Source of the DNA: Protonemura montana
Lineage: Eukaryota > Arthropoda > Insecta > Plecoptera > Nemouridae
Reading direction: 5' to 3'
NCBI GenBank assembly: GCA_947568835.1
Contig: OX387612.1
Span: 5,146,001 to 5,210,000 of the forward strand
Length of the DNA stretch: 64,000 nt
Under the pieces are notes generated by a model, which saw only the letters and a list, made by a program, of their open reading frames with translations, ran no database searches and was not told where the DNA came from. Below, piece after piece: positions 27,631-52,155 of the stretch (the first letter of the stretch is position 1; each line of letters opens with the position of its first letter). The position numbers were made by a program, and so were the translations under genes.

Positions 27631-28275
27631 TCGCTTGTCACTTTGACACACTGTGTTAGCTGCTCCTGTCCAACAGCACCAAGAACCGGTCACCGCTTAG
27701 CCTTGTCCCTTTGACACACTGTGTTGGCTGCTCCTGTCCAGCAGCACCAAGAACCGGTCACCGCTTAGCCTTGTCCCTTTGACACACTGTGTTAGCTGCT
27801 CCTGTCCAACAGCACCAAGAACCGGTCACCGCTTAGCCTTGTCCTTTTGACACACTGTGTTGGCTGCTCCTGTCCAACAGCACCAAGGACCGGCCATCGC
27901 TTAGCCTTGTTCCTTTGACACACTGTGTTGGCTGCTCCTGTCCAACAGCACCAAGGACCGGCCATCGCTTAGCCTTGTTCCTTTGACACACTGTGTTGGC
28001 TGCTCCTGTCCAACAGCACCAAGGACCGGCCACCGCTTAGCCTTGTCCCTTTGACACACTGTGTTGGCTGCTCCTGTCCAACTGCACCAAGGACCGGCCA
28101 CCACTTAGCCTTGTCACTTTGACACACTGTGTTGGCTGCTCCTGTCCAACAGCACCAAGGACCGGCCACCGCTTAGCCTTGTCCCTTTGACACACTTTGT
28201 TGGCTGCTCCTGTCCAACATCACCAAGGACCGGCCACCACTTAGCTTTGTCCCTTTGACACACTGTGTTGGCTGC
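27631..28275 (-). repeat. 68-bp tandem repeat, locus 1 (about 9 units), beside opsin exon 2
   Basis: Unit in reverse orientation: GCGGTGGCCGGTCCTTGGTG, CTGTTGGACAGGAGCAGCCA and ACACAGTGTGTCAAAGGGAC. The array starts about 43 bp from the exon 2 acceptor and runs straight into a 5S SINE fragment. Confidence 0.94.
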
Positions 28276-28289
28276 TGCTATGGCACCGA

Positions 28290-28535
28290 CGGAATTTCTG
28301 ACCCTTCCGAAAGACGGTTAAACACGAACAACTGGATTACTCAACAAATCCATGCTAGCGTAAATTGACAACATGAATGAAGTTGCTGTACAAACTTTTA
28401 TCCCTCCAACCTATAATTCATACAGAACTGGTAATGTGTATGATGGTCACCCATGCAGTGTAGCAGTGTAGCTTTTTTTTGGGGGATCTTACTAGAACCG
28501 GTGTTCCCAACATGCCAAACTGTTCGGCCACTAAA
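28290..28535 (-). mobile_element. Diverged 5S SINE fragment
   Basis: Recognisable pieces are CCTTCCGAAAGACGG, AACAAATCCATGCT, TCCCTCCAACCT, GTGTATGATGGTCACCC and AGAACCGGTGTTCCCAACA. It is more diverged than most copies. It follows directly on the 68-bp array. Confidence 0.7.
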
Positions 28536-28649
28536 TTGCAAAAATGCGCTAGACCTGGCTCAGTAAAAACTCAAATATCAACAAACAAGCACATCAGGCG
28601 ACAGCTTGTTTATTAAATAGGACCGTGTTCCCGAAAACATACGATATAA

Positions 28650-28955
28650 AACAACTTCATCTTCAACAGCAACTTTATCAACCTCTCGGCAGCTTGATTT
28701 TGTTGAGACATCTTGTTGTTAACTTAGTGGCGTCGTCCTTTGGAAGGAACGTTAAGCCGGTGGTCCATTTGGTGCTCTCCGACAGGAGTAGGCTACGTGC
28801 CGGCACCGGGTTTCCTCTCCTCCTTTCTAGACTAGGTTAGGTTCATCCTCATCCTCATCCTCATTCACTCACTCACGGACGCCATCAGACCAGTGCCACA
28901 GGGCCCGTTGTCAAAACAGTGCGTCGTTAAAAACCACAAATCAATAAATCGATCT
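28650..28955 (+). mobile_element. 5S SINE fragment (3' part)
   Basis: The 5S head is absent. It starts near ATCAACCTCTCGGCAGC and carries the central domain and the GTCGTTAAAAACCACAAATC tail, so it is 5'-truncated as reverse transcription often leaves. Confidence 0.82.
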
Positions 28956-29764
28956 TATAAAAAGACCTTTACGTGCAGCCAAGTTATTGAAGGACTAAAA
29001 AGAACATAACGACAGGTGTATTATGTCAAGAGTACAGAAGAACCACGTGAAAATCCATTATGGATGTTAATGGCAAATTCTTTGACTTTTCGTGCTGAGC
29101 AATTCAATCATAAGGAAGCATGACTACACAAAGATATCCAGCGCAAATCTGTCAGAGGGGCGGAAACGGAATAAACATAAATATCAAATAAAATGGTTTC
29201 GCTGGCGCTCTTTCCGTACTCCCACGCATAACGAATGCTTTTCAACTCGACGCGCATTTGAATTTGAATTGGATTGAAGTGTAGGCGGGAATTATAAAGT
29301 CTCGCAACCATTATTCAAAGACTGTCACTTTTGAATAGACACTTTTAAGATTTTTGTTTTCTTGTATCGCCTTTCGTGATAGTTTCCAAAATGCTACACA
29401 AAAATGCCGAAGTTCTTTTTAGGTGCAAGAAACAAATAAATGACGTCTTCACGATTGAATCATGGTCATGAAAGATGTAATTAGGCCCTACTACAATAGC
29501 GATTATGTTGAACTGTCTTCGCGCAAGAAATGGTCGCCAAATGATTGCTTCATCGCGTTCTTCAGTCACTGTCGTTTCGAGTGTTAAGAGATTCTTGCAC
29601 TTGGCTCGTATTTGAGTCTAGTTTACAATCATTGCATCTTCATAAATGCTAAATGTACCGATATTTTGTTTTGTAACTCTTAAATTGTAGAGTTTTGTTA
29701 ACAAGGACGGCCACGGTCGTCATCGGGTGGTCACCACCGACACCACATGTTTGATTGATTTGTG

Positions 29765-30195
29765 GTGTTTTACGACGCACTGTTTTGACAACTGCCCAGT
29801 GGCACTGGTCTAAAAGTGTTGGTGAATGTGTGGATGGTGATGAGGATGATGATGAACCTGACCTAGCCTAGAAGGAAGGAGGAAAAATCCGGTGCCGGCA
29901 CGTAGCCTACTCTTGTCGAAAATCACCAAGAGGACCATCGGCTTAACGTCCCTTCCGAAGGACGATACAAAGCGAACAGCAGGATTCCTCCACAAATCCA
30001 TGCTGTCGAGAGATTGATAAGCAAGACGAGTGAAGCTGCTGTAGGTACTAACTTTCATCCCTGCAACCTCTCTCCCGAACAGAACTGGTCATGTGTATGA
30101 TGGTCACCCATCCAATATCTGACCCAGCGCAGTGTTGCCTAACTTCGGTGATCTCACGAGAACCGGTGTTGCCAACACGCCAAAACGTTCGGTAA
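29765..30195 (-). mobile_element. 5S SINE, near-complete
   Basis: A minus-oriented copy running from the tail (GTGGTGTTTTACGACGCACT) through the central domain to the 5S head ending CACGCCAAAACGTTCGGT. Confidence 0.88.
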
Positions 30196-32126
30196 AACCA
30201 CGTTCAACAATAAAGTTCATGCATAATCATTAGTTGTGCATAATTTAGTGTTTATTAAGAGTTTTGCAGCCGTATTGGATCTGTTTAAAAGGTTCGCTGA
30301 CCAACGAAAGCTTGAAGTGGGCAACCACAGCCGAATCCAAAATGGCGGACAAACGAGGCTCAAGGCCGTCTACTTGGCTTGCAAATAAAGACATCACCTG
30401 TTGATTAGGTTTTAGACAAACACAGTTTGGCCGAATGTTTCGGAGTGAAAACATGTCTTTTTGTAATTAGCACTTCAAAGGCAGATTGCTCGGTGCCCCT
30501 AAAGCGACATTTACGGCCACACTTTCCATAATAAACGCTCACACACAACACCAAAAGCCAGACACAAAGACACTTGACATTTAATTCTGGGCGAGAAACG
30601 AGATGTAAAAATGGGATTTTTGTTTTTTAAAGGTTGGTTTTTTATGGACCTCTGTGTGCCAAAATAGAGCTGGTCAAGAAGGTTAAGGCAATTAGAATTA
30701 ATGTGTTAACCAAACGTTGAATCTGCCATTTTACTGCTACGTGTGTGAACGTATTTTTTTTTGGTAATGGATTGATTTTTGCGGAGATATCCTGGCCATG
30801 TGTGGCAAAGTCAAAGAACTGTACAACAAAGAAGTTGTAGACAAAGATTTAATCTATGTTCGATCATGATTATATTTGTGATTTTGTTTCCCTCCTTGCC
30901 AAAATAAAACAACAAAACAAGAGAATATATTTAAAACCGAGTTCATGGAAATTTAAATAGGAGAAAAATTTAACTTTGCCCTTTCCGGTCTTTAGGGGAT
31001 AGGACCTAATAGGATAGGGTAGGGGATAGGTCTTTAGGATATTTGAATAAATAAAAAAATAAAACGATTTAGTAAAAATAAAATTTATTTTTCATCTGAC
31101 TCAAACTTTATAAACTTTATGCAATTTAAACTTTTTAAGTATGATAACGGTGAAAAAATTTGCCAATACTGGCATTTTTATCGAAATGAAAAAAAAAACT
31201 CTAATGACATTCGACATAGGACTGGAAACGGTTAATATTTTGTCTAAAACTCACTTAACTGTTTGTTAGCATTCTAACTTGAACAAATTAAACAGTTTAT
31301 GACTGAAACTTAACTCTGTTTAATGCTCATTATTTAAAACGCTGATTAAATTATTAGGAAAAAATATTCAACAACCATTACCTGCTTTTTCTAAAAGAAA
31401 AATACTAATTTAATTGGTCTATAAAGTCGGAGACAGATTTTGAGTAAGTCAGCCACATTTTCCCTTAAAACAAGTTTATGAAAGATATATCAGAAAATCA
31501 GGTTGTAATTCTGTACGGAATCAACGAATCCACTGAATCTACTCGAATATATATGGAGTGGACCAACTTTTTATTTAGATCTACATCGAGGTTTAATACA
31601 CATCTAGGTCACTTGGACATTTTTATTTCAACTTGTGCACTTTATGTCAAATTCCTACCATTCCGTCTCTGGCTTAATCAGTGAGAAGTATGCCAGACAT
31701 TTCTTTTCATCCCTTTCGTCCCTTTCATCGTAAAGGATTAAGAATATGTACGTCTGCTCTGGTGAACATACCCGGGGTAGCTTTGAAATATTTTATTATA
31801 TTACACAATTACAGGGTCAACTATGCCCAACAAAAAACAAACAAAAAATAAAGTTTAACCATAACAGCCAATCACGGACTGTGTTTCTAAATTTTCAGGG
31901 GTTTTTGCCAGAGTAATAACAAATCAACCCCCATATTTATAGGTAGTTTTCAAAAAAAATCAGCTTAACTATTCGATTTCCTGTTTTTCTAAACCCTTAC
32001 TAGGATTCGTAATTAGTAAAATAATTTTCTTGAGAAGACGAGAGCAGCGGGTAATTTTTGCATTCGAAAAAAAGCTCTTTCATTCTAAAGGTGAGAAGAG
32101 ATATTGAGTTGAAGAGAGCAAAGAAT
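30196..32126. other. Unassigned AT-rich intronic sequence (opsin intron 1)
   Basis: Contains a small local duplication of GGGGATAGG near 30995-31030. Nothing else supported. Confidence 0.5.
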
Positions 32127-32412
32127 GAACCCGGTGCCAGCAATCAGCCTGCTCCTGTCCAATAGCACCAAGGACTGGTCACTGCTTAGCCTTGTCCCTT
32201 TGACACATTGTGTTGGCTGCTCCTGTCCAACAGCACCAAGGACCAGCCACCACTTAGCCTTGTCCCTTTGACACACTGTGTTGGCTGCTCTTGTTCAACA
32301 GCACCAAGGACAGGTCACCGCTTAGTCTTGTCCCTTTGACACGCTGTGTTGGCTGCTTCTGTCCAACAGCACCAAGGACCGGCCACCGCTTAGCCTTGTC
32401 CCTGTGGCACTT
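32127..32412 (-). repeat. 68-bp tandem repeat, locus 2 (about 4 units) with a SINE-like edge
   Basis: At its left edge the sequence GAACCCGGTGCCAGCAATCA followed by GCCTGCTCCTGTCCAATAGC continues the match to the 5S SINE central domain (CCCGGTGCCGGCACGTAGCC) beyond the repeat unit, so this locus appears to keep the ancestral junction. Confidence 0.92.
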
Positions 32413-33177
32413 TTTTTTTTCTATAATATGGAACTTTTTAGAAAATTACTTTTAGCACAGGAAAACAATGGCCTGTATTTATAAAAATGGTTTGTAAATA
32501 AATGAAAAAAAATCACAACACCGTTATGACAGTAATTGGTAATCAAAAATAAAAATCAACGCAAATTAGAGCCAGAAATTTTTACGAATCACTGAAATCT
32601 AAAATAAAATAATAATATTACTCTCCCAATTAAAATATAAAAAGAAAAACGACAGAAAATAAAACAGAAAAAACAGAAAAAACAAAAAATGTGTAATTAA
32701 CAGTCTTCGAGTTTGTAATCGTCGTTCTAAGAGAAGTGGATTTATTTTCCCTTTATTGGCACAAAGATCACAATTTACTTTACTCCAAGCACGACTTTCT
32801 GCTTCTCGCCTCTTAACCCTTTTCCTATTACGTTCGGTAATTGGCGGCTAAGAAAATCCTGCGCAGGTTTTGATTACGTCTTTCCGCTAGTCTTCAAGTT
32901 TGCGTTTGACATTTCCTTTGAAATGCTGAAAAGAAATGAAGCTAATAAATAGAACAGGTTCCTTGAAACTAACTTAAAAATAAAAGACAAACGAGAGTCG
33001 CTGTCGTTGTCGTGAAGAATCCGATTTTGTATTTTCACGCTACACTTGTTTTTTTAATTTCTGCAGACAATTTAAATTACTGGAACTTTATATAACAATT
33101 GTTGGTGCTCTTCATGCTTTTGTAATTGTTGGGCAATGAATGCTGTGCTTATTTTTGTTGATGTTTGGTTAGTGACG
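32413..33177. other. Unassigned AT-rich intronic sequence
   Basis: A-rich tracts at 32640-32690; no supported feature. Confidence 0.5.
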
Positions 33178-33224
33178 TATTCGTCTGGCTACACCGGTGC
33201 GTCCCGGTTGTGCACCGGAAGCAT

Positions 33225-36180
33225 ATCTACGTGTTCGACTGGACATGTGACTCTGTCCCAGTGCAACTTTCACGTGTTCGACTGGGCATGTGACTCTGCC
33301 CCAGTGCAACTTTCATGTGTTCGACTGGGCATGTGACTCTCTCCCAGTGCAACTTTCACGTGTTTGACTGGGCATGTGACTCTGTCCCAGTGTAACTTTC
33401 ACGTGTTTGACTGGGCATGTGACTCTGCCCCAGTGTAACTTTCACGTGTTTGACTGGGCATGTGACTCTGTCCCAGTGTAACTTTCACGTGTTCGACTGG
33501 GCATGTGACTCTGTCCCAGTGCAACTTTCACGTGTTCGACTGGGCATGTAACTCTGCCTCAGTGCAACTTTCACGTGTTCGACTGGGCATGTGACTCTGC
33601 CCCAGTGCAACTTTCACGTGTTCGACTGGGAATGTGACTCTGCCCCAGTGCAACTTTCACGTGTTCGACTGGGCATGTGACTCTGCCCCAGTGCAACTTT
33701 CACGTGTTTGACTGGACTAGGACTCTGCCCCAGTGCAACTTTCACGTGTTCGACTGGGCATGTGACTCTGTCCCAGTGCAACTTTCATGTGTTCGGCTGG
33801 GCATGTGACTCTGTCCCAGTGCAACTTTCACGTGTTCGACTTGGCATGTGACTCTGTCCCAGTGCAACTTTCACGTGTTCGACTGGGCATGTGACTCTGC
33901 CCCAGTGCAACTTTCATGTGTTCGACTGGGCATGTGACTCTGTCCCAGTGCAACTTTCACGTGTTTGACTGGGCATGTGACTCTGTCCCAGTGTAACTTT
34001 CACGTGTTTGACTGGGCATGTGACTCTGCCCCAGTGTAACTTTCACGTGTTTGACTGGGCATGTGACTCTGTCCCAGTGTAACTTTCACGTGTTCGACTG
34101 GGCATGTGACTCTGTCCCAGTGCAACTTTCACGTGTTCGACTGGGCATGTGACTCTGCCTCAGTGCAACTTTCACGTGTTCGACTGGGCATGTGACTCTG
34201 CCCCAGTGCAACTTTCACGTGTTCGACTGGGAATGTGACTCTGCCCCAGTGCAACTTTCACGTGTTCGACTGGGCATGTGACTCTGCCCCAGTGCAACTT
34301 TCACGTGTTTGACTGGACATGTGACTCTGCCCCAGTGCAACTTTCACGTGTTCGACTGGGCATGTGACTCTGTCCCAGTGCAACTTTCATGTGTTCGGCT
34401 GGGCATGTGACTCTGTCCCAGTGCAACTTTCACGTGTTCGACTTGGCATGTGACTCTGTCCCAGTGCAACTTTCACGTGTTTGACTGGGCATGTGACTCT
34501 GCCCCAGTGCAACTTTCACGTGTTCGACTGGGTATGTGACTCTGCCCCAGTGCAACTTTCACGTGTTCGACTGTGCATGTGACTCTGCCCCAGTGCAACT
34601 TTCACGTGTTCGACTGGGCATGTAGCTCTGCCCCAGTGCAACTTTCACGTGTTTGACTGACCATGTCACTCTGCCCCAGTGTAACTTTCACGTCTTCGAC
34701 TGGGCATGTGACTCTGCCCCAGTGCAACTTTCACGTGTTTGACTTGGCATGTGACTCTGTCCCAGTGCAACTTTCACGTGTTCGACTGGGCATGTGACTC
34801 TGTCCCGGTGCAACTTTCATGTGTTCGGCTGGGCATGTGACTCTGTCCCAGTGCAACTTTCACGTGTTCGACTTGGCATGTGACTCTGTCCCAGTGCAAC
34901 TTTCACGTGTTTGACTGGGCATGTGACTCTGCCCCAGTGCAACTTTCACGTGTTCGACTGGGTATGTGACTCTGCCCCAGTGCAACTTTCACGTGTTCGA
35001 CTGTGCATGTGACTCTGCCCCAGTGCAACTTTCACGTGTTCGACTGGGAATGTAGCTCTGCCCCAGTGCAACTTTCACGTGTTTGACTGACCATGTCACT
35101 CTGCCCCAGTGTAACTTTCACGTGTTTGACTGGGCATGTGACTCTGCCCCAGTGCAACTTTCACGTGTTTGACTGGGCATGTGACTCTGCCCCGGTGCAA
35201 CTTTCACGTGTTTGACTGGGCATGTGACTCTGTCCCAGTGCAACTTTCACGTGTTCGACTGGGCATGTCACTCTGTCCCAGTGCAACTTTCACGTGTTTG
35301 ATTGGGCATGTCACTCTGCCCCAGTGCAACTTTCACGTGTTCGACTGTGCATGTGACTCTGCCCCAGTGCAACTTTCACGTGTTCGACTGGGAATGTAGC
35401 TCTGCCCCAGTGCAACTTTCACGTGTTTGACTGACCATGTCACTCTGCCCCAGTGTAACTTTCACGTGTTTGACTGGGCATGTGACTCTGCCCCAGTGCA
35501 ACTTTCACGTGTTTGACTGGGCATGTGACTCTGCCCCGGTGCAACTTTCACGTGTTTGACTGGGCATGTGACTCTGTCCCAGTGCAACTTTCACGTGTTC
35601 GACTGGGCATGTCACTCTGTCCCAGTGCAACTTTCACGTGTTTGATTGGGCATGTCACTCTGCCCCAGTGCAACTTTCACGTGATCGACTGGGCATGTGA
35701 CTCTGCTCCAGTGCAACTTTCACACCTTCAACTGGGCATGTGACTCTGCCCCAGTGCAACTTTCACGTGTTCGACTGGGCATGTGACTCTGCCCCAGTGC
35801 AACTTTCACGTGTTCGACTGGGCATGTGACTCTGTCCCAGTGCAACTTTCACGTGATCGACTGGGCATGTTACTCTGTCCCAGTGTAACTTTCACGTGTT
35901 CGACTGGGCATGTGACTCTGTCCCAGTGCAACTTTCACGTATTTGACTGGACATGTGACTCTGTCCCAGTGCAACTTTCACGTGTTCAACTGGACATGTG
36001 ACTCTGTCCCAGTGCAACTTTCACGTGTTCGACTGGGCATGTGACTCTGCCCCAGTGCAACTTTCACGTGTTCGACTGGGCATGTGACTCTGTCCCAGTG
36101 CACTTTTCACGTGTTCGACTGGGCATGTGACTCTGCCCCAGTGCAACTTTCATGTGTTCGACTGGGCATGTGACTCTGTC
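33225..36180. repeat. 43-bp E-box tandem repeat, locus 3 (about 69 units) with higher-order structure
   Basis: The largest array in the window. Variant units recur at multiples of 43 bp: GTTCGGCTGG at 33791, 34393 (602 = 14 units) and 34823 (430 = 10 units); CGACTGGGAATGTAGC at 35041 and 35385 (344 = 8 units). This is block duplication by unequal exchange. The left edge (33178-33224) has GTATTCGTCTGGCTACACCG, similar to the edge at 55328. Confidence 0.96.
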
Positions 36181-36290
36181 GTGGAGCGCTCTCGCTCGGA
36201 GCTGGTGCAAACCCGGTGGAGAGCATGACGTCATCGAGAAAGTTTCAAACCAGCTCTGGTGCAGGCCTGTCGAAAATATGTTTTATCACC
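36181..36290. repeat. Conserved right flank of the 43-bp array, locus 3 (shortened)
   Basis: GGAGCGCTCTCGCTCGGAGC, GCATGACGTCATCGAGAAAG and TTTCAAACCAGC match the distal part of the flanks at 15.2 and 56.4 kb. The proximal TTGCTCGCTC part is missing. Confidence 0.8.
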
Positions 36291-37094
36291 AGAATTAACA
36301 CGACCACTTTCAGAGGAAATTAAAGCTTACTCACAGTTAGAGTAAGCGGATACGAGTAACGGAAGTCTCGCGGTGGAAGGCATGACATTAGCAGACGTTA
36401 TAGACATAAAACGGATCGAAATTGTCCTTCGCACTTCTCACTTCTACTCATTTCGTTTTGAAATGAAAAATTGTTTCGTCCATTAAGAAGCCGTATGATT
36501 TTGTCGTGGTGGCAATTCTGATTGGTTGACTGACATTAAACGTCGCAAGTGCACAAAGAATTTAAATGAAATTAATTACTATTTCTTGTACTTGTGACTC
36601 GGCCATTACTTCTTTTGTCTGTTATCGTCGATCTTATTTAAAGCTAATGAGTGGATTCGTTTCCAAGTTGCGCTAAAATGATGGTATTGCGAGACTTTAC
36701 GAAACTTGAACCATCAAATAAAAATGAAATATAAATTAAACCATTTTAAATCTAAAGACCATCGTAAGTTTGTTACTTCAAGTCAAAAACAAAAAAGACT
36801 TATTCTGAAAGTCGAGACGTTTTAAAGCATCGTTACTATGTAATGGTGTTTGGTCCATAGTTTAACGAGTCATATTGTAAGGATAACCGAAATTGTGTTT
36901 TTTCAGTGAATTGTGTATTTGCAACGATTGCAGTAATGACTTGTCAGAAGGTTCTATTTGTGTGTATTTGGAACTTTTCACAGAATTCTATTTTAGCTCT
37001 TTTTAAAGTCTTGTTTATTGCATGAAGTCAGTAGACCATTAATAATTAAATCATAATTATTTAATGAGAAGTAAATCATTGTTAAATTTACCTC
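36291..37094. other. Unassigned intronic sequence
   Basis: No supported feature. Confidence 0.5.
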
Positions 37095-37378
37095 AAATGC
37101 ACGAAGCAGCTCTCAAATATAACTTGGCTCCTCCACCAAGTGCCCCTGAACGCAGCCCGCAAAGCAAACTTGGCTCCTCCACTAATTGCCCCTGACCGCA
37201 GCCCGCAGAGCAAACGTGGCTCCTCCACCAAATGCCCCTGACCGCAGCCCGCAAAGCAAACTTGGCTCCTCCACTAATTGCCCCTGAACGCAGCCCGCAG
37301 AACAAACTTGGCTCCTCCACCACGTGCCCCTGAACGCAACCCGCAGAGTAAACTTGGCTCCTCCACCAAGTACCTCTG
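37095..37378. repeat. 46-bp tandem repeat (about 6 units)
   Basis: The unit contains CAAACTTGGCTCCTCCACCA and TGCCCCTGAACGCAGCCCGC, with 46-bp spacing between CCCGCA motifs. Confidence 0.92.
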
Positions 37379-37884
37379 TATGCTGCAATTAGTAGATGCA
37401 TTAAATACAGAAGGAAAAATAAAAATTTTCTGTCACCCCGACATATTTTCAAAGCTCCAAGACTGTTGTTTTTATGTATAGAATCGACTTAATATAAGAG
37501 CGTGTGGCGTTTCTGCTGACGCTACCTAACCTGTCACCTGACGGGCATGTCTATCAGCTGAGACGGGTGCGACCCTCTGGAGCCACGAGGACAGATAGTC
37601 GGTCGACTTTGGTCCAGTTTAACGGAAACCAGAACATATAGAGCGATTAAATCTTATTAATTTTGGTTCAACACTATCTCAACAGAGCGTTATTTATTGA
37701 TAGAACCTCACAAACAAAAATTGGTGTAGCTGTATCTTGTTGACACGGCCGAGTTTTAAGCGTGACTACGTTCAACTACCGCGTAGGCACGTAGGTCAAC
37801 TACCGTACTGACCATACTTCAGTTGCAAGAAACCATAAAACCATAAAAGATCTTCATCTGAGACGATTCAACAAGTCAACAATA

Positions 37885-38485
37885 CGTGTGCTCGTTTAAC
37901 GCCACTGTGTATTGGAAATGTTTCTCACGTGTAGCACATGCCGGGGGTCGGCGCCGTTGTTTGAGTGACGGGTTCGCTTTGCCCAGGACTGGAACCCTGG
38001 ACGGAGTCATCAATGCTTGTGCTTGTGCAACGCCACTGTGTATTGGAAATGTTTCTCACATTTAGTTCACATGCCGGGGGTCGGCGCCGTTGTACCAGGA
38101 CTGGAACCCTGGACGGAGTCATCAATGCTTGTGCTTGTTCAACGCCACTGTGTATTGAAAATGTTTCTCACATGTAGTTCACATGCCGGGGGTCGGCGCC
38201 GTTGTACCAGGACTGGAACCCTGGACGGAGTCATCAATGCTTGTGCTTGTTCAACGCCACTGTGTATTGAAAATGTTTCTCACATGTAGTTCACATGCCG
38301 GGGGTCGGCGCCGTTGTACCAGGACTGGAACCCTGGACGGAGTCATCAATGCTTGTGCTTGTGCAACGCCACTGTGTATTGGAAATGTTTCTCACGTGTA
38401 GTTCACATGCCGGGGGTCGGCGCCGTTGTTTGAGTGACGGGTTCGCTTGTACCAGGACTGAAACCCTGGACGGAGTCCTCGAAAA
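37885..38485. repeat. 112-bp tandem repeat (about 5 units)
   Basis: ATGCCGGGGGTCGGCGCCGT recurs at 38071, 38183, 38295 and 38407 (112 bp apart), with a first unit at 37938. Only the first and last units carry an extra TTTGAGTGACGGGTTCGCTT, so inner units were amplified from a form without it. Confidence 0.93.
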
Positions 38486-38995
38486 ATTGTCTGTTTTACA
38501 TCTCTCTTTATTTGGGTTGTGTTTTCATATCTAATTTACATGCTGAATGACTTTACAGATTGGGATGGAAGTGTCATCTTGCGATATATATATTTTTTAT
38601 TTTGCATTAGTCTAATGTCGAGTGCTAAAAACGTCGCCTCCTCTAACGCCTCCAATATTTAGTTTAGCGAAAATGAAAAAAACTTACTCTAGAGAATTAT
38701 CTGAACTATTGAATGATAATAAGTTGCACTCTGTCCTTTGCTTCCTGTAGGCTGTAGGGGTTGTTACACGTTTGCCATTTTGGAGAGCAAATTGGTATAT
38801 GCCTCCCTATATACAGCGCTATAAGACGTAGACACGTCAAAACAACTGTCCTATGAAATGCTAACAAAAACGATACGATACAATAACTGAAAATATATTT
38901 AACGCGCACGTGCAAAGAATCGCTAAAGTAACCCAATTTTCTCGTAAACCTATTAGTATAATTAACTTCTTATTAGGAACACGACTACCATCTCA

Positions 38996-39130
38996 AAAAC
39001 TGAACAAACGGGGAACACGAACCCCGATCTCCACCTATCGCGGGTGTTACTTTTACCAATTAAGCTTATTGGACATGGAATTTTTATAAAGTATAATGAC
39101 AGTTTTCTGCCCATTGCAAACATTTATGAT
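38996..39130 (-). mobile_element. tRNA-derived SINE-like repeat, minus strand
   Basis: In reverse it carries GTCCAATAAGCTTAATTGG, a bipartite tRNA-like core and GGGTTCGTGTTCCCCG, followed by a TGCCCATTGCAAACATTT-type tail. Confidence 0.7.
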
Positions 39131-39868: not shown

Positions 39869-40159
39869 ATCCAATTTGTACGAGTGACTTAAATGTATTT
39901 CAATTTTGTAAAGATATTGTGAATTCATATACACCTCGAAGCTCATTTCCAGAAGCAGGCGGCGTGGATAGTCAGTCAAAGGGATTTGCTGAGACGCAGG
40001 GTAGAGTGACCGGCTAGAGCTAGGCTAGGCTAGAGTGACCGGCGTCGGCGCCTTTCATTCCACAACAGACGTATCGAAATTTCAGGGAACCTATGCAATT
40101 TTATTGTTTATGTTCGTAACACTACACAAGGCAGACAATGCAAGCTTGTTCGAATCAGT

Positions 40160-40920: not shown

Positions 40921-41590
40921 GGGTGTTGTTGCATTTCTATCGAAAGGTATGGGGCGTAGTCCCATAGTCCCCACAGCAAGTAGCCTGGCTAATTTTTAAG
41001 CTAAACAGTACGCTAATCCCTGCAATGTGTTTGGTCACCCTGTGATTTGATTGATGTGATTTATTTGTGCATAGTCAGTAATACTATTATAGTGATGTTT
41101 TGAAATTTTGTATTACTGTATATGTAATAATATGTATTATTTTTACTGGGCCAGTAATCTCAAATCGTCTTTAGTTTACTGGTACAGTAATCTCAAAACG
41201 TTTCTAGTTTACTGGTACAGTAATCGTAGATCATATTGAGTTTACTGGCCAGTAAAACTAGCATATGCTGTGTTTACTGGGGGGTAATGTTAGTGGACAG
41301 TATAAATATTATGCGACACCGGCACGTAGCCTACTCCTGTAAAATAGCACCAAAGGGACCCCCGGCTTAACGTCCCTTCCGAAGGACGGTACAACGCGAA
41401 CATCAGGATTCCTCCACAAATCAATGCTGTCGAGAGGTTGGTAAGCAAGGCAAGTGAAGTTGCTGTACTAACTTTCATCCCTCTAACCTCTCTCCCGAAC
41501 AGAACTGGTCATGTGTATGATGGTCACCCATCCTTTCTTCGCTGATCTCATGAGAACCGGCTTTTCTGCCACGCCAAACCGTTCGGTGCG

Positions 41591-42127
41591 TTATTTTTAT
41601 AATAATAACCTATTAGTTATTTTGACTGGATTTCATTTAAGTGCCCCAACCAGTGATTTTTATACTGTCTGACAGGTAATTTCGTTCACAATTCCGCGCC
41701 TACCATGTCCGATACCTATTAAAGGCAACCTTTTATAGAAGATTCCGAAGAAGAAAAAAAAACTCTTAGCTCACTCTTTTATCAAAACTATTCATACCAT
41801 CCATGCGTGAAAAAGGGCACCTATTTGACACGCATGTGTGTGAGTTTTCTGTTACACTTCAGTAGATAACGCCACCTGTATTGCCCGTACGTTCAACATC
41901 GTAGTCCGCACCTGTTCCCCTACACGATTCGTTGCCGGCTTTCGAAAGCCTAGCCTTATTCATGAATCAACCTTTCAGCACTGAATGAAGCAATTTAGTT
42001 TTATTTTGAACAGTAGAGAACAGAGTCTCGTGGATGAAAAACCTGTGCATTGAGGATTGGGTTCAATGTTTAGTCTGTAAATTGTAAAAGTTTTTAAAAA
42101 AAGTTTTTTAGTTAGATCCAGTTAGGT
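41591..42127. other. Unassigned intronic sequence
   Basis: No supported feature. Confidence 0.5.
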
Positions 42128-42202
42128 CTGGTTTCAACAAAATGTTTAGCTATAAATTGGATCTCTAGCTCACAGAAACATCTGAATTTCACTGCATGTG
42201 AA
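42128..42202 (+). repeat. Single diverged unit of the 92-bp repeat
   Basis: TTTCAACAAAATGTTTAGCT, then AAATTGGATCTCTAGCTCAC and TTTCACTGCATGTGA match the array at 8.1-8.6 kb, 34 kb away. Confidence 0.8.
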
Positions 42203-42254
42203 CAAATTGGAGAAATTTGGAGGAAATTTGAAACTGGCTTGCGCTCAATTAATC

Positions 42255-42475
42255 GTCATTAATTTTAATAAACGTGTATCGATATTTTGAGTCGTAATTA
42301 CTTAATTGCAAAGGTTTTTTTTTTCAAAGTAAGGTCGCAAGCGCCATCGGGTGACTACTACCGTTACCACATGTTTCCGGATAGTTTGCTCAGCAGATAG
42401 TTTAACTTTAACGCTGGCCCTCGGACTATACCTTTAAACTCAATGTGCAATAGAACTTTGAGAAATATTCAGACT
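42255..42475. repeat. Dispersed repeat 'N', copy 1
   Basis: GTGTATCGATATTTTGAGTC, GTCGCAAGCGCCATCGGGTG, CCGTTACCACATGTTTCCGG and ACCTTTAAACTCAATG match 63140-63290. A partial inverted match (TTGAGTTTAAAGGTAT) lies at 17985-18000, and a diverged piece at 29700-29750. Confidence 0.72.
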
Positions 42476-42692
42476 TAGATTAAAGTAACCATAGGAAAGT
42501 GATTTTGCTTGAGGCAAGAACGAAATTGCAAAGCCAAATTGTTGGAATTTGCAAATTAAAAACTAACATGAAATGAAAATAAAAATGGCTAAAGAAAATG
42601 TGAAATTTTAAAGTTAAAAGGCAATTTGTGTAAGAAATTGTCTAACTTCTGAGAACAAATATGCACATAAAAACTTTGAGGTTACAGTCCCT

Positions 42693-43397
42693 ACTCACGG
42701 GTTACTTGTTTTAGATTGCCATGACACCCACCCATTACTATTACACTGTGATAAACTGCCCGATGCCAGGCACGGGTTACTTGTTTTAGATTGCCATGAC
42801 AACCTTGTTTCACCCACCCATTACTATTACATTGTGATGAACTGCCCGGTGCCGGGCACGGGTTACTTGTTTTAGATTGCCATGACAACCAATTGTTTCA
42901 CCCACCCATTACTATTACATTGTGATGAACTGCCCGATGCCGGGCACGGGTTACTTGTTTTAGATTGCCATGACAACCAATTGTTTCACCCACCCATTAC
43001 TATTACATTGTGATGAACTGCCCGATGCCGGGCACGGGTTACTTGTTTTAGATTGCCATGAGAACCCTTTTTTCACCCACCCATTACTATTACATTGTGA
43101 TGAACTGCCCGATGCCGGGCACGGGTTACTTGTTTTAGATTGCCATGACAACCCTTGTTTCACCCACCCATTACTATTACATTGTGATGAACTGTCCGAT
43201 GCCGGGCACGGGTTACTTGTTTTAGATTGCCATGACAACCCTTGTTTCACCCACCCATTACTATTACATTGTGATGAACTGCCCGATGCCGGGCACGGGT
43301 TACTTGTTTTAGATTGCCATGACAACTCTTGTTTCACCCACCCATTACTATTACATTGTGATGAACTGCGCGATGCCGGGCACGGGTTATTTGTTTT
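42693..43397. repeat. 87-bp tandem repeat, second locus (about 8 units)
   Basis: Same orientation and near-identical sequence to 2267-2489. The first unit is shortened. Open frames through the array on both strands follow from the unit length (3 x 29) and are not evidence of a gene. Confidence 0.93.
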
Positions 43398-43602
43398 TTT
43401 GTTTTACCCTTTTCAAGAAACAAAACGCTAAACATATCACTTCACCAAAAAAAAAATAAGATATCTCAGTGTTTGCTGACTCATCTGCACAATGTCCACC
43501 GAACGAAAATACAAATTACCAAGAACGAGCTCAATTCGTTCATTGCCATTTCTTCCCAATGCCTAACGCCATAAAGCGCATCGGCAAATTTGCATTTAAA
43601 CG

Positions 43603-43758
43603 ATGCACGAGCGCCTAGCTGAACGAAGCCCGCATTCGAAATGTCATCTGTACCAATTTAGTGCACCTCGCGACGGAATGCACTATTTCCAGTGCGATGC
43701 AATCATTGATTTTCCAAGGGCCCTTTCGTTCGCCAATGCGGGCGCATGTTTGAGAGCG
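43603..43758 (+). CDS. Weak candidate exon of a secreted cysteine-containing protein
   Basis: A GC-richer stretch has an open frame running into CAG|GTTGGT, a possible donor at 43764-43769. It encodes SPHSKCHLYQFS, MHYFQC and DFPRALSFANAGACL. Spacing of the three cysteines loosely resembles a CBM14 domain missing its third cysteine, while the YF...DF..AL...G..L pattern loosely resembles the start of a C-type lectin domain. An in-frame stop precedes the ATG and there is no signal peptide, so if real it is probably an internal exon with an acceptor near the ATG. I cannot assign it. It may be chance. Confidence 0.22.
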
Positions 43759-43929
43759 TTCCAGGTTGGTATTATTGACGTTTTCATGCATTTTTTTTTA
43801 AATATATGTGTTGAATGCATGGGATTGTGAAACCCTCTGGTTTGCCTTAGTTGAAATGAGTTGGCCAAAAAGTATATGAGATAGAAATTCATGTATGAAT
43901 ATGCAATATCTTTAGGAAACTTTTGACTG

Positions 43930-44355
43930 AACGGTTTGGCGTGTTGGAAACACCGGTTCTCATTAGATCACCGAAGTTAAGCAACACTGCGCTGAGTCAG
44001 GTTTTGGATGAGAGACCATCATACATATGACCAGTTATGTTCGGGAGAGAGGTTGGAGGGATGAAAGTTAGTAAAGCAACTTCACTCGCCTTGCTTATCA
44101 ACCTCTCGACAGCATGGATTTGTGAAGGAATCCTGTTGTTCGCGTTGTACCGTCCTTCGGAAGGGACGTTAAGCCGGTGGTCCCCTTGATCTTTGACAGG
44201 AGTAGGCTACGTGCTGGCATCGGGTTTCACCTCCTTGCTTCTAGGCTAGGTTAGGTTTATCATCATCCTCATAATCGTCCGCTCATTCACCGACGCCATT
44301 AGACTAGAGCCACATAGCCAGTTGTGAAAACAGTGCGTCGTTAAAACACAACAAT
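43930..44355 (+). mobile_element. 5S SINE, near-complete
   Basis: Runs from GAACGGTTTGGCGTGTTGG to the GTCGTTAAAACACAACAATA tail. GGAAACTT occurs just before (43916-43923) and just after (about 44369), a possible target duplication with short extra bases at the 5' end. Confidence 0.88.
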
Positions 44356-44619
44356 AAATCGAATCGGGAAACTTCAAAATTACTCACATAGTAAGTTTCT
44401 TGTAAAATCTACTGAATTTATTCTTTCTTCAACTGTTTCACTATACTTTTTGTTCTCTGTGATGGCAAGTTTTTGACCTTTTTTACAGGAAATGGTGTCA
44501 ATGGCTGTGAATGGTGTAAACCTCTTATTATTCTATTCTCTGAACAAAATCCGTGATTACCCGCGATAAGTGTAGAGAATAATTGGTCCCGTTTGGGCAT
44601 CAGTTTTTTCAGTAGCAGT

Positions 44620-45015
44620 GTTTCTAATAATAGGATATCCCGCGCATTGCAAGCGTTTCCAATTTAAAATTAGATATCACATATTTAAACGCATCCAACG
44701 TCAAATTGGAGTTACTAGAGATGGACAGGCTGTGACGTGGTATAGCGTCACTAGAATCAGAGTGACTGTGAGTATTCACAGCCTCTTGGTTCTGCTTCTT
44801 AGAGATCCGCCATTCTCATCAAAAACTCGAAAAACCTCCCGAAAATGATGTGTCCACGTAAGTATGGGTTGGAGCAACACCCGCGATGGGTGGTGATCGA
44901 GGTTCCATTCCCCGAATGGGCATCAATTTTTGAAGGTTTAGAAGTGTTCCTAAAAAATTTATTTCCTGTGCATTGCAAGGGTTTGCAATTTAAAATTAGA
45001 TTTCACAGCTGTTAC
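44620..45015 (+). mobile_element. tRNA-derived SINE-like repeat with an extra tail fragment
   Basis: A separate tail fragment (CGCGCATTGCAAGCGTTTCC) lies at 44638-44690. A full unit follows, with leader GGTATAGCGTCACTAGAATC, tRNA-like core around 44850-44925 and tail CATTGCAAGGGTTTGCAATT. Confidence 0.75.
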
Positions 45016-45123
45016 ACTACTTTTTTATTCAAACAGAAACTTAAGGCTGTAATTGCTATAAAAAACTTAAAACTTTCTTGGACAGTCATTTTCGTTGCCA
45101 AATTTGAAAAAAAAACTCAAGCA

Positions 45124-46692
45124 AAGGAGGTTTAATAGTAGATTCAACGTTTGGTAGCCATGGAGATGCTGAGATCGCCTGACAGAGCTTCTCAATTCTG
45201 CTATCTTATGTTACCACGGGTATATTATGGCCTAGCATAGGAGGTTCAATGGTAGATTCAAAGTTTGGTAGCCATGGAGATGCTGAGATCGCCTGACAGA
45301 GCTTCTCAATTCTGCTATCTTATGTTACCACTGGTATATCATGGCCTAGCATAGGAGGTTCAATGGTAGATTCAACGTTTGATAGCCATGGAGATGTTGA
45401 GATTGCCTGACAGAGCTTCTCAATTCTGCTATCTTATGTTATCACGGGTATATCATGGCCTAGCATAGGAGGTTCAATGGTAGATTCAACGTTTGGTAGC
45501 CATGGAGATGCTGAGATCGCCTGACAGAGCTTCTCAATTCTGCTATCTTATGTTACCACGGGTATATCATGGCCTAGCATAGGAGGTTCAATGGTAGATT
45601 CAACGTTTGATAGCCATGGAGATGCTGAGATCGCCTGATAGAGCTTCTCAATTCTGCTATCTTATGTTACCACGGGTATATCATGGCCTAGCATAGGAGG
45701 TTCAATGGTAGATTCAAAGTTTGGTAGCCATGGAGATGCTGAGATCGCCTGACAGAGCTTCTCAATTCTGCTATCTTATGTTACCACTGGTATATCATGG
45801 CCTAGCATAGGAGGTTCAATGGTAGATTCAACGTTTGATAGCCATGGAGATGTTGAGATCGCCTGACAGAGCTTCTCAATTCTGCTATCTTATGTTACCA
45901 CGGGTATAACATGGTCTAGCATAGGAGGTTCAATGGTAGATTCAACGTTTGGTAGCCATGGAGATGCTGAGATCGCCTGACAGAGCTTCTCAATTCTGCT
46001 ATCTTATGTTACCACGGGTATATCATGGCCTAGCATAGGAGGTTCAATGGTAGATTCAATGTTTGATAGCCATGGAGATGCTGTGATCGCCTGACAGAGC
46101 TTATCAATTCTGCTATCTTATGTTACCACGGGTATATCATGGCCTAGCATAGGAGGTTCAATGGTAGATTCAACGTTTGGTAGCCATGGAGATGTTGAGA
46201 TTGCCTGACAGAGCTTCTCAATTCTGCTATCTTATGTTACCACGGGTATATCATGGCCTAGTATAGGAGGTTCAATGGTAGATTCAACGTTTGATAGCCA
46301 TGGAGATGCTGAGATCGCCTGACAGAGCTTCTCAGCTCTGCTACTTTTGTTACTACAGGTATATCATGGCCTAGCATAGGAGGTTCAATGGTAGATTCAA
46401 CGTTTGATAGCCATGGAGATGCTGAGATCGCCTGAGAGAGCTCCTCAATTCTGCTATCTTATGTTACCACGGGTATATCATGGCCTAGCATAGGAGGTTC
46501 AATGGTAGATTCAACGTTTGATAGCCATGGAGATGTTGAGATTGCCTGACAGAGCTTCTCAATTCTGCTATCTTATGTTACCACGGGTATATCATGGCCT
46601 AGTATAGGAGGTTCAATGGTAGATTCAACGTTTGATAGCCATGGAGATGCTGAGATCGCCTGACAGAGCTTCTCAGCTCTGCTACTTTCATT
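45124..46692. repeat. 114-bp tandem repeat (about 13.7 units)
   Basis: GGAGGTTCAATGGTAGATTC recurs every 114 bp. Other unit motifs are GGTAGCCATGGAGATGCTGA and TTATGTTACCACGGGTATAT. The variant AAAGTTTGGTAGCC recurs 456 bp (four units) apart, indicating higher-order blocks. Confidence 0.95.
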
Positions 46693-47454
46693 AATAAATC
46701 ACCTCGCTTTAGCACGCATCGCTCGGTGTACTTTTTTAATTAATTTTTTATACGATTTCCTGAGTCTTTTGACGCAGAAAGAAAGACTGGCAATAATAAA
46801 AGATTTGTGGTATTATAAAAAGTTACGGATAATTCAACGTCAAACCAAATGACATGAAAGTTCTCAAATAAAAAATATTAATTAAAATTCAAGTTTGTGT
46901 GAAAGCGGCGAACAAACTTGAAATTGTTTTACGGTAAAACATTAGAATTGTTACAAATTAACTTTCCTATTTATTGGATTTCTGAAGACGCATCTCCTTT
47001 TTCTAGCGTGAGCCTTACCTTGCCACAGCCTGGTGGAATCTGACGTCACTAACTACATGTTGCCAACTTTAGAACGTAAAATAAAGCTAATCTTCACCGG
47101 GGAGTTTGAAAATTAACCATAAAAATTATGAAGGAACAATTACATTTCGCATTTTAATTCTTTGTGAATTAATCAGTTTATTTACGGGAAACTTGACCTA
47201 TTGAAAAACAAGAGCTTTAATGCTAAACTCAAAGTCCTAGTGACTTCTGCTCATAACCTACCGTACACTAGCAGATTCTAGCAATGGCTGCCACAAAGCA
47301 GTTTGCAAGTTTGGATGCTTGTCAAAACCTGATATAAGATAAAATAAACTCAAAATATATACATTTGATCTTTGCTTGATTAATATTGATTGTTTTTCAT
47401 TCAATATTTATTTTTACTGAAATTATTACATTTTTTTTCTGCTTTAAAATCGGA
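46693..47454. other. Unassigned AT-rich intronic sequence
   Basis: No supported feature between the 114-bp and 84-bp arrays. Confidence 0.5.
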
Positions 47455-48695
47455 TAGTTAACAGTAGCATCATGGTGTCATGCTTTCTAGGTTGGTACAA
47501 GCACCCCAGAAAGTGGAAAACTCATATTAATCCTAGTGTTGTTAACAGTAGCATCATGGTGTCATGCTTTCTAGGTTGGTACAAGCACCCCAGAAAGTGG
47601 CAAACTCAAATTAATCCTAGTGTAGTTAACAGTAGCATCATGGTGTCATGCTTTCTAGGTTGGTACAAGCAGCCCAGAAAGTGGCAAACTCAAATTAATC
47701 CTAGTTAACAGTAGCATCATGGTGTCATGTTTTCTAGGTTGGTACAAGCACCCCAGAAAGTGGCAAACTCATATTAATCCTAGTGTAGTTAACAGTAGAA
47801 TCATGGTGTCATGTTTTCTAGGTTGGTACAAGCACCCCAGAAAGTGGCAAACTCAAATTAATCCTAGTGTAGTTAACAGTAGCATCATGGTGTCATGTTT
47901 TCTAGGTTGGTACAAGCACCCCAGAAAGTGGCAAACTCAAATTAATCCTAGTGTTGTTAACAGTAGCATCATGGTGTCATGTTTTCTAGGTTGGTACAAG
48001 CAGCCCAGAAAGTGGCAAACTCAAATTAATCCTAGTGTAGTTAACAGTAGCATCATGGTGTAATGTTTTCTAGGTTGGTACAAGCAGCCCAGAAAGTGGC
48101 AAACTCATATTAATCTTAGTGTAGTTAACAGTAGCATCATGGTGTAATGTTTTCTAGGTTGGTACAAGCAGCCCAGAAAGTGGCAAACTCATATTAATCC
48201 TAGTGTAGTTAACAGTAGCATCATGGTGTAATGTTTTCTAGGTTGGTACAAGCAGCCCAGAAAGTGGCAAACTCATATTAATCCTAGTGTAGTTAACAGT
48301 AGCATCATGGTGTCATGCTTTCTAGGTTGGTACAAGCACCCCAGAAAGTGGCAAACTCAAATTAATCCTAGTGTAACAGTAGCATCATGGTGTCATGTTT
48401 TCTAGGTTGGTACAAGCACCCCAGAAAGTGGCAAACTCATATTAATCCTAGTGTAGTTAACAGTAGAATCATGGTGTCATGTTTTCTAGGTTGGTACAAG
48501 CACCCCAGAAAGTGGCAAACTCAAATTAATCCTAGTGTAACAGTAGCATCATGGTGTCATGTTTTCTAGGTTGGTACAAGCACCCCAGAAAGTGGCAAAC
48601 TCAAATTAATCCTAGTGTAACAGTAGCATCATGGTGTCATGCTTTCTAGGTTGGTACAAGCACCCCAGAAAGTGGCAAACTCAAATTAATCCTAA
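47455..48695. repeat. 84-bp tandem repeat (about 15 units)
   Basis: The unit includes ATCATGGTGTCATGCTTTCT, AGGTTGGTACAAGCACCCCA and GTGGCAAACTCAAATTAATC. It is 28 codons long, so long open frames arise by chance. Some units lack the TGTAGT hexamer between copies. Confidence 0.95.
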
Positions 48696-48887
48696 TCTAC
48701 CATATGTACCACATTATTTAAAACATGTACATGATTATGCTTTGCTGAAATATGTTCATCTTAACACCCATGGGCTGAATACGCGAAGCAAAGTCTAAGT
48801 TAACCCATGAGTTAAATTAGGATCAGTCAATCACAGAAAGCTTTTTCAATCACAGAAGGGCTTACGGTTAAACCCCGATAAGAATAA

Positions 48888-48932
48888 TAATATATATAAT
48901 AATAATAAGATATATATATATATATATATTTT
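48888..48932. repeat. AT-rich microsatellite
   Basis: Runs of AATAATAAT and (TA)n. Similar short (AT)n tracts occur near 1565, 21240, 38585 and 50348. Confidence 0.85.
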
Positions 48933-49399
48933 ATTCTGGGAACAATAACTTCAAAAAGAGTAAGGTTTGTTATAGAATACGTCATGGATAACATAAAGTG
49001 AGAGAAGCAAGAGACAGTAGGATAGCATAAAGTAATTATACATTATTAATTCCGTATATAAATTCAAAGATAATTCAGAGTCTGTTTTCTACATGTGAAT
49101 GACAATCATGGAATGAATATGGGCAAAGCTTACAGAGAAATATTTTAAGTTCAGTCTTGAAGCGGTTTGTTCCTTGAAGTGCTTTGAAGTGGATAGTGGG
49201 AGGTCATTAAAGAGTAATTATCCTGGATAGAGCGGGCTTTTGCTATAGATATGTATTTTACAGTTGGGCCGAGCTCGGTGCGTTTTGTTCCGTGTGTTGA
49301 TGCGTTCGGTGCATTGTCTTCGGCATACTTTCATAAAAGTGGTTAAAAAATGAATATTTGAGCATAAAAGTCGATTTTAGAAATATACTGATAAGTTTA

Positions 49400-49940
49400 T
49401 TCACTCTGTAGTGCATTTTAGAATATGTTTTAAGAGGTTTAAACGGAACGTGAAAATCAACATCAGAGCAAATCTGTTTGCATGGCTATTCTCACGTGTT
49501 GCTGATTCACTAATAAAATATTCAAAACAATTATTCTGTGAGAAATGTGTGAGAAACTCAGAAAAAACTAAATTTTGTTGCCGCCTTCGGTTTCTCAAGG
49601 AGTAGTAATAGAGTTGAGTAATTCGCAATATTTTATTACATCAACAATACTAATCTTGAGATAATAACAAGTTTTCAGACATCTTACTTATCTAATTCAA
49701 AGTAAAAAATGTACTTTTAATGTAGTTAAAAGTAGTAAAAAACTCCGCCCGTGTTTCAACGCTAAAACCTCACCAGTAAATCGAATTTTGGTAGCGATAA
49801 TTTCTAATATTAAACTTTCAAGCACGAGGACTTCATAAATGTTAGTCTCATCTCGATCAGACAAATAGCTTCAATGAAACCGAAGTCTCGGTGCGCGGCA
49901 CCAAATTACGTCCAGCGAGTCGCTCGGACTCGATGTCGGT
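49400..49940 (-). mobile_element. Dispersed repeat 'F', without SINE or array
   Basis: The same blocks as 26311-27290 but with TTGAGATAATAAC present once, giving the pre-insertion state for that SINE. It ends at CAAATTACGTCCAGCGAGTC. No 57-bp array is attached. Confidence 0.8.
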
Positions 49941-50348
49941 AGCTACTCATTACCCCTTCAAAAAAGCGGATTAGGGATACCTATGAAACGGCTTAAAAAA
50001 ACTTGAACACAATAATAACTTTAACAACTGTCGTCTCTTATCTTGGGCCGTGCCCCGTGTGCCAATGTTCATCAGCACACCACTGCCTGTGAGTCAAATA
50101 TCAATATATGTAATTCGCAGTGCGGAAATATAATTTCCGCAGGAAATTGGCTAAATATTGTTCTTTCAAGAACCTTTATTGGGTTTATCGATAGAGATGA
50201 TAGTATTTCATTTCAATATGAAATGATATTTCATAAATATATGCGGTGTAATGGTGTGGAAACCAATCACACCAAATCGCAACCGAATCGAACGCTCACA
50301 CACAATTTGATTTCTACCATATCGTGGCATATAGGTATAATAAAAAAG

Positions 50349-50379
<31 letters not shown>

Positions 50380-50569
50380 CATTTTACTCACTAACAAACT
50401 TCAACGACCCACGCTATCGCTTGAAGCAACGAATTCAAGGTTTTTTCTTCAAGGTAGATTTGTTCGAACGACATCCAAGTCCAGACCTCATATTCTAGCT
50501 CATCTAAAATGCATGCTTATAACATTGTTGGACCTCAAATTCAGTTATTTTGATGAGTGTCAACACAGA

Positions 50570-52155
50570 GTGTCAGAAGGACAAGGGTAAGCGGTGGCCG
50601 GTCCTTGGTGCTGTTGGACAGGAGCAGCCAACACAGTGTGTCAAAGGGACAATGCTAAGCGGTGGCCGGTTCTTGGTGCTGTTGAACAGGAGCAGCCAAC
50701 ACAGTGTGTCAGAGTGACAAGGCTAAGCAGTGGCCGGTCCTTGGTGCTGTTGGACAGGAGCAGCCAACACAGTGTGTCAAAGGGACAAGGCTAAGCGGTG
50801 GCTGGTCCTTGGTGCTGCTGGACAGGAGCAGCCAACACAGTGTGTCAAAGTGACAAGGCTAAGCGGTGGCCGGTCCTTGGTGCTGTTGAACAGGAGCAGC
50901 CAACACAGTGTGTCAAAGAGACAAGGCTAAGCGGTGGCCGGTCCTTGGTGCTGTTGAACAGGAGCAGCCAACACAGTGTGTCAGAGTGACAAGGCTAAGC
51001 GGTGGCCGGTCCTTGGTGCTGTTGGACAGGAGCAGCCAACACAGTGGGTCAAAGTGACAAGGCTAAGCGGTGGCCGGTCCTTGGTGCTGTTGAACAGGAG
51101 CAGCCAACACAGTGTGTCAAAGAGACAAGGCTAAGCGGTGGCCGGTCCTTGGTGCTGTTGAACAGGAGCAGCCAACACAGTGTGTCAGAGTGACAAGGCT
51201 AAGCGGTGGCCGGTCCTTGGTGCTGCTGGACAGGAGCAGCCAACAAAGTGTGCCAAAGTGACAAGACTAAGCGGTGGCCGGCCTTTGTGTTGTTTTACAG
51301 GAGCAGCCAACACAGTGTGTCAAAGTGACAAGGCTAAGCGGTGGCCGGTCCTTGGTGCTGTTGGACAGGAGCAGCCAACACAGTGGGTCAAAGTGACAAG
51401 GCTAAGCGGTGGCCGGTCCTTGGTGCTGTTGAACAGGAGCAGCCAACACAGTGTGTCAAAGGGACAAGGCTAAGCGGTGGCCGGTCCTTGGTGCTGTTGG
51501 ACAGGAGCAGCCAACACAGTGTGCCAAAGTGACAAGACTAAGCGGTGGCCGGCCTTTGTGCTGTTGAACAGGAGCAGCCAACACAGTGTGTCAAAGTGAC
51601 AAGGCTAAGTGGTGGCCGGTCGTTGGTGCTGTTGGACAGGAGCAGCCAACACAGTGTGCCAAAGAGACATGGCTAAGCGGTGGCCGGTCCTTGGTGCTGT
51701 TGGACAGGAGCAGCCAACACAGTGTGCCAAAGAGACATGGCTAAGCGGTGGCCGGTTGTTGGTGCTGTTGGACAGGAGCAGCCAACACAGTGTGGCAAAG
51801 AGACAAGGCTAAGCGGTGGCCGGTCCTTGGTGCTGTTGGACAGAAGCAGCCAACACAGTGTGTTAAAGAGACAAGGCTAAGCGGTGGCCAGTCCTTGGTG
51901 CTGTTGGACAGGAGCAGCCAACACAGCGTGTCAAAGGGACAAGGCTAAGCGGTGGCCGGTCCTTGGTGCTGTTGGACAGGAGCAGCCAACACAGTGTGTC
52001 AAAGAGACAAGGCTAAGCGGTGGCTGGTCCTTGGTTCTGTTGAACAGGAGCAGTCAACACAGTGTGTTAAAGTGACAAGGCTAAGCGGTGGCCGGTCTTT
52101 GGTACTGTTGGACAGGAGCAGCCAACACAGTGTGTTAAAGGGACAAAGCCAGCCC
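50570..52155 (+). repeat. 68-bp tandem repeat, locus 3 (about 23 units), beside opsin exon 1
   Basis: Plus-oriented, opposite to loci 1 and 2. It ends about 55 bp from the exon 1 donor, inside intron 1. Variants such as CCTTTGTGTTGTT and GGGTCAAAGTGAC recur several units apart, indicating block duplications. Confidence 0.95.

Follow-up and report, generated by a model that had tools for sequence, protein, structure and literature searches.

The 68-bp satellite of the plecopteran Protonemura montana is very probably derived from a short interspersed nuclear element (SINE), with a repeat unit that joins two separated segments of the element and that would have formed through a long tandem of the SINE, the loss of an internal segment and a later expansion. 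We analyzed a stretch of 64,000 nucleotides, referred to as the window, of contig OX387612.1 (assembly GCA_947568835.1, positions 5,146,001 to 5,210,000). The window's common 5S SINE is called SINE-A here and a related form SINE-B, the latter composed of a core (C), a segment of about 109 bp (T) and a 3′ end (E); all of these names were coined in this analysis. Tandem Repeats Finder (TRF) placed three arrays of the 68-bp unit in the window: array 1 at 27634..28276 (SINE orientation on the minus strand, 9.5 units, also delimited by alignment and unit statistics), array 2 at 32149..32410 (minus strand, 3.9 units), and array 3 at 50561..52146 (plus strand, 23.4 units). The original prediction had the satellite at three loci, which holds inside the window but not for the genome, because the core 23-mer occurs exactly 6,594 times in the 258-Mb assembly and its controls do not occur. 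Searching the open-access literature with general terms, we found no published account of this satellite.

Homology of the 68-bp unit to the 5S SINE

The satellite repeat unit is homologous to part of the SINE beyond chance (score 106, against a maximum of 30 in 200 shuffles). Against the SINE-A consensus, which was derived from 12 window segments, the whole unit scored 44 over about 53 bp (AAGGGAC...GAGCAG) and its 42-bp core scored 40 at approximately positions 241 to 279; in neither case did any of 1,000 dinucleotide shuffles equal the score. The core match on which the original prediction was built is therefore real, and the homologous part is about 53 bp rather than the 28 bp then quoted. 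The remaining CAACACAGTGTGTC, taken alone, had no significant match to the window SINE (185 of 1,000 shuffles were equally good), and this part of the unit thus needs another source.

That source is found only through a collinear form containing all three segments. The long form C-T-E (177 bp), obtained from an alignment of 19 segments with its ends completed by hand, is collinear end to end with SINE-A from about 231 to 412: it scored 154, the best of 500 mononucleotide shuffles reaching 27, and for T-E by itself the score was 112 and the shuffle maximum 29. In the alignment of C-T-E with SINE-A, the CAACACAGTGTGTC of the unit lies opposite CAAAACAGTGCGTC, close to the 3′ end of the SINE. The 68-bp unit is E plus C minus the 109-bp T, which is more than the central domain alone, and it is most closely related to the sister form, SINE-B, and not to the SINE that is common in the window. 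Descent from a 5S-SINE lineage, as originally suggested, is supported, and descent from the central domain is replaced by this two-segment composition.

Loci with long and short repeats and the boundaries of the arrays

Intermediates between the unit and the SINE, which the original prediction had proposed to look for genome-wide, are present. Long (C-T-E) and short (C-E) repeats occur together at three loci of the genome (L-numbers denote genome loci). At L034, one long repeat is followed by three short ones, the last of which continues into T again; at L032, a SINE-like head precedes a long repeat and short repeats, and the tail is truncated; and L072 is a mixture of the two kinds, with a super-period of 239 bp.

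The junctions between the segments are also recurrent. The C/T junction was found at 86 places in the genome (46-mer, at most three mismatches) and the T/E junction at 117 (26-mer, at most two mismatches), both with no match of the reversed-pattern control, and the places listed are spread over nine contigs. The 86 C/T junctions are unevenly distributed, with 23 on contig C12, 22 on C15, 16 each on C13 and C14, seven on C2 and one each on C5 and C11; none of them is on C1 (33 Mb). When all 86 C/T places were paired with the 100 listed of the 117 T/E places, ten T/E...C/T pairs at most 4 kb apart had the right order and strand; no pair stood in the wrong order, and in three the members were on opposite strands. 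Once strand was corrected for, the spacing had a common phase modulo 68 in eight of the ten pairs and was off by 1 in one pair and by 7 in another. Such paired arrays sit in whole units between SINE tails.

Longer terminal units that run into the SINE were seen at one or both ends of arrays. In a survey of 12 arrays not selected by their edges, nine from eight loci of the genome (L013 carries two) and three from the window, only four ran on at the 3′ edge into GGCACCGGGTT... (L009, L011, L015 and the array at 32.1 kb in the window); further loci beyond the 12 arrays carry a longer continuation at this edge. As a separate observation, an inverted piece of segment T lies immediately ahead of the 68-bp array at L016 (2841-2872).

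At 32.1 kb, the original prediction noted a SINE match extending past the unit (32127-32170), as though the founding junction of the satellite were preserved there. The match itself is there (32128-32172, 77.8%, E 1.9e-4), and we describe it as the C/T edge of array 2 at 32106..32148 on the minus strand, where GGCTGATTGCTGGCACCGGGTTCAT... leads into SINE segment T, which is then truncated; this edge is weak, with 10 mismatches of 34. However, the same array boundary recurs at 86 places (at most 3 mismatches of 46), and we therefore reject the founding junction at this site, for which the edge is no evidence. The reading that belongs to it, in which the central domain of the common window SINE was duplicated in tandem as one contiguous piece and the founding junction was kept at 32.1 kb, would account for the core homology and for the SINE-like run beyond the unit, but it does not accommodate E as a separate 3′-end segment, the recurrence of the edge, or the long and short repeats found side by side, and we regard it as highly improbable. 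A pattern linking the CTTCGGAAGGGAC of the window SINE to the unit gave one match only, at three mismatches, and a direct run of the one into the other was rejected.

At array 1, the end of segment T (GGTGCCATAGCAGCAG) tentatively leads into E at 28272..28287 on the minus strand, with a BLAST boundary at GTGCCATAGCAG; this feature is short and uncertain. A diverged SINE head plus linker adjoins the array at 28302..28527 (minus strand), with 73.4% identity to a window SINE copy (E 6e-36) and 76% to positions 1 to 236 of the SINE consensus.

Proposed origin of the 68-bp unit

We propose, with high confidence, that the satellite arose from SINE-B by way of a long tandem. The 3′ end of one SINE-B copy would have been joined head-to-tail with the core of the next to give a C-T-E tandem of about 177 bp. 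T would then have been lost from one repeat, leaving the short E plus C unit of 68 bp, and this unit would have expanded between the flanking long repeats. Arrays would have changed in length by whole units, and the T-E-[C-E]n-C-T structure now stands at many places. The E/C and C/E joints would have a common origin, and dispersal may have been by retrotransposition, circular DNA or duplication.

One difference in length by whole units is seen between duplicated loci. The inverted duplicates L053 and L054, separated by 39 kb, align in two blocks covering flank and array (805 and 1,380 bp, 99.13% identical), and their arrays have five and three units, a difference of exactly 136 bp. The units average 92 to 99% identity to the unit consensus and the best 40 of 324 T candidates 83 to 96% to the T query, a comparison that is merely suggestive because the two figures rest on different selections.

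Several results weigh against the proposed origin. Scoring of 40 of 81 candidates yielded no unexpanded SINE-B that carries a 5S head, and the query of head plus core from L032 was matched at full length only at L032 itself. The head at L032 resembles SINE-A heads by BLAST (72 to 84% over 35 to 64 bp, best E 1.8e-9), but Rfam gave no 5S match in it, nor any up to E 1 in the head at 28.3 kb. Among the 12 unselected arrays, eight have no T at the 3′ edge, and at the 5′ edge T or a SINE head was present in about three and neither in about nine. As a measure of homogenization by concerted evolution, mean unit identity within loci (0.934) was barely higher than that between loci (0.927), in a partly selected sample of 347 units at 26 loci for which a match at 50 of 68 positions was required; the value within was the higher one at 21 of the 26. 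Target-site duplications showed no excess at 33 elements, two of which are mutual duplicates, with 37 of 300 shuffled pairings as good, a weak test because the element boundaries are BLAST ends. Finally, direct repeats of at least 3 bp are absent at a distance of 109, the length of the T deletion; for the joint of the long unit, CGTTAA is spaced 174 apart in SINE-A, but away from the joint itself. Because no unexpanded SINE-B was found, many edges lack T and target-site duplications are not in excess, we infer how the events followed one another and how the satellite was dispersed.

The missing progenitor, together with the many arrays that have no SINE flank, is also what would be expected if the direction were the reverse and a satellite-bearing mobile element had given its domain to the SINEs. 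Against such a transfer, the order C-T-E is kept in SINE-A within one collinear stretch, the short unit lacking T reads as the derived state, and the known edges continue into SINE segments, so that this direction has very little probability. The original prediction named an older element that carries the full unit and is unrelated to the SINE as the finding that would speak against it; no such element was seen in a search that was not exhaustive, and the fuller structures bearing the unit are SINE-like.

It could also be supposed that every array was born independently from its own local SINE copy, since other parts of the same SINE lineage have made separate satellites and such births are therefore not rare. 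However, the units at 26 loci fit a single ungapped 68-bp consensus, and distance 109 has no direct repeat that would lead the deletion of T to recur. The fit to the consensus doubled as the selection rule, and arrays with other joints would accordingly have been missed. We consider independent births very improbable.

SINE copies and 5S heads in the window

The window contains at least nine whole or partial SINE-A copies, and Rfam RF00001 (5S) matched above the gathering score at six places, the head of SINE-A being 5S-like. As a 5S-derived SINE, it would be expected to be transcribed by Pol III and to depend on a LINE for its mobility. The copy at 29700..30193 (minus strand) was defined by alignment and has its 5S head at 30073-30193 (Rfam 5S, 55.1 bits). 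Sequence match and Rfam 5S together identified three copies on the plus strand, at 26559..26991, 43922..44363 and 17070..17494, and sequence match identified two more on the same strand with incomplete heads, at 57028..57397 and 22074..22400.

Other satellites of the same SINE lineage

The same SINE lineage also gave satellites of 91, 46 and 26 bp. Tandem expansions of the 5S head with a period of 91 bp were detected by TRF at two places in the window, both on the minus strand: at 13157..13344, within the SINE-A copy 12906-13388, and at 62364..62802, beside the SINE-A body 62182-62460. The junction of this 91-bp repeat occurs 25,579 times genome-wide (at most two mismatches). The end of T gave the 26-bp repeat, which is present 1,608 times (at most one mismatch) and at L075 abuts a 68-bp array at T/E. 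The 46-bp repeat, also from T, was found at 17 places in four loci. Near a 46-bp array of the SINE tail, L024 carries a 52-bp tandem repeat of 13 copies (168-847) that looks tRNA-like by eye.

In the unexpanded consensuses, 6-bp direct repeats stand at the exact period of each of these satellites: AAGTTA at 91, CAGGCT at 46 and GACAGC at 26. A repeat of this length is reached at 5 of 101 distances in the 91 case (10 of 101 with the whole SINE), at 6 of 101 in the 46 case and at 6 of 101 in the 26 case (3 of 98 in T-E alone), in a test made after the periods were known. It is a tentative proposal, which we regard as possible rather than probable, that a single 5S-SINE lineage works as a factory of satellites, with the 91-bp satellite from the head, the 68-bp satellite from the core and 3′ end, and the 46- and 26-bp satellites from T, in which the periods 91, 46 and 26 are the spacings of pre-existing 6-bp repeats. 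The rule does not account for the 68-bp unit, because there is no such repeat at the 109-bp deletion. If the proposal is true, the period of a satellite would be partly predictable from the SINE sequence beforehand. The agreement of the three periods with repeats already in place makes the seeding step testable, and the expectation is that tandem births begin at short direct repeats within SINEs.

Arrays and introns

At L011, a 68-bp array (approximately 2320-2656) occupies a predicted intron in a gene for a DNA topoisomerase and fills it. Pieces of PF01131 lie on either side of it, one covering profile positions 293 to 338 (30.9 bits, below the cut-off of 35.1) and the other 340 to 410 (39.6 bits), and the inferred acceptor CTTCCTGCCAG is segment T sequence. 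By eye, several other arrays abut splice-like sites. These features would suit introner-like elements that create introns and draw their 3′ splice site from segment T. However, the element ends inside T vary among the 40 of 86 C/T loci compared by eye, the donor-like start is not common, with an exact match at L010 only, and the comparison of target-site duplications described above gave no excess. We think it very unlikely that the arrays are introners and dropped this as a general explanation; because the ends vary and no insertion duplications were seen, the element is not treated as an introner.

Other tandem arrays of the window

The 37 TRF rows of the window were reduced to 17 unit consensuses for comparison with the SINE, the rest being repeats of these or short; one unit of 128 bp was trimmed to 120 letters. 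The 68-bp unit and two 91-bp units are clearly related to the SINE, with none of 200 shuffles as good in each case, and the other 14 have no clear relation to it, 9 to 170 of 200 shuffles being as good. Among the latter are four 43-bp arrays (5198-6024, 14468-15102, 33229-36178 and 55362-56277; 12 of 200 shuffles as good), three of which have a right-hand flank (gctcgctct...) in common by eye, as if they were borne by a mobile element. By eye, the 26-bp arrays at 6255-6636, 24981-25326 and 53482-54271 also have a common flank (cgatcggacaagtggtttggccgatta...), and their relation to the SINE is likewise unclear (9 of 200 shuffles as good).

Comparison with known SINE-derived satellites

A single genome seldom contains every intermediate between a dispersed retroelement and a satellite. 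In P. montana, the long tandem can be read side by side with the product of the deletion, the array after expansion and a difference in length by whole units, and the path from mobile to satellite DNA can be traced. The general process has been described before, and the case belongs to a known kind, the SINE-derived satellites.

In squamate reptiles, satellites have been described whose units come from portions of a SINE and whose terminal units are longer (PMC10702118); a preference for subtelomeric positions is a feature of the squamate satellites. The 68-bp satellite resembles them in the origin of its unit, in terminal units that run on into the SINE, and in the large number of loci. However, the squamate satellites come from Squam SINE families and not from a 5S SINE, and we found no two-segment unit in the parts of that account consulted. 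In P. montana, moreover, in-phase long repeats can stand at both ends of an array, and four periods come from one lineage.

In the limpet Patella caerulea, PcH-sat derives from Nin-SINE (PMC11121367). It is likewise an invertebrate satellite partly of SINE origin, and its SINE has a conserved central domain; unlike the 68-bp satellite, its unit is 179 bp, of which 118 bp match Nin-SINE, and it is pericentromeric. EEEb3 of hagfish (PMC9734144) also combines 5S and SINE sequence in a tandem repeat, but it is a mosaic of 379 to 438 bp composed of 5S rDNA, SINE2 homology and GTA repeats, and it belongs to eliminated germline DNA. Parts of SINEs are also the source of the tandem repeats known as the mouse B1 variable number tandem repeat (VNTR), the salamander Hy/Pol III repeat, Xenopus satellite 1 and human Alu minisatellites (PMC9659126), which arose from other SINE families and for which no unit anatomy of this kind is described in the available text. 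The composite retrotransposons SVA and LAVA, which contain VNTRs (PMC4432496), are similar in that retrotransposon sequence carries an internal tandem array; they are hominoid elements, and the array-bearing form described here is at most putatively mobile. Compared with these systems, the satellite of P. montana is distinguished by its origin in a 5S SINE, by a unit composed of two segments, by arrays some of which have long repeats in phase at both ends, and by the several satellites that one lineage produced.

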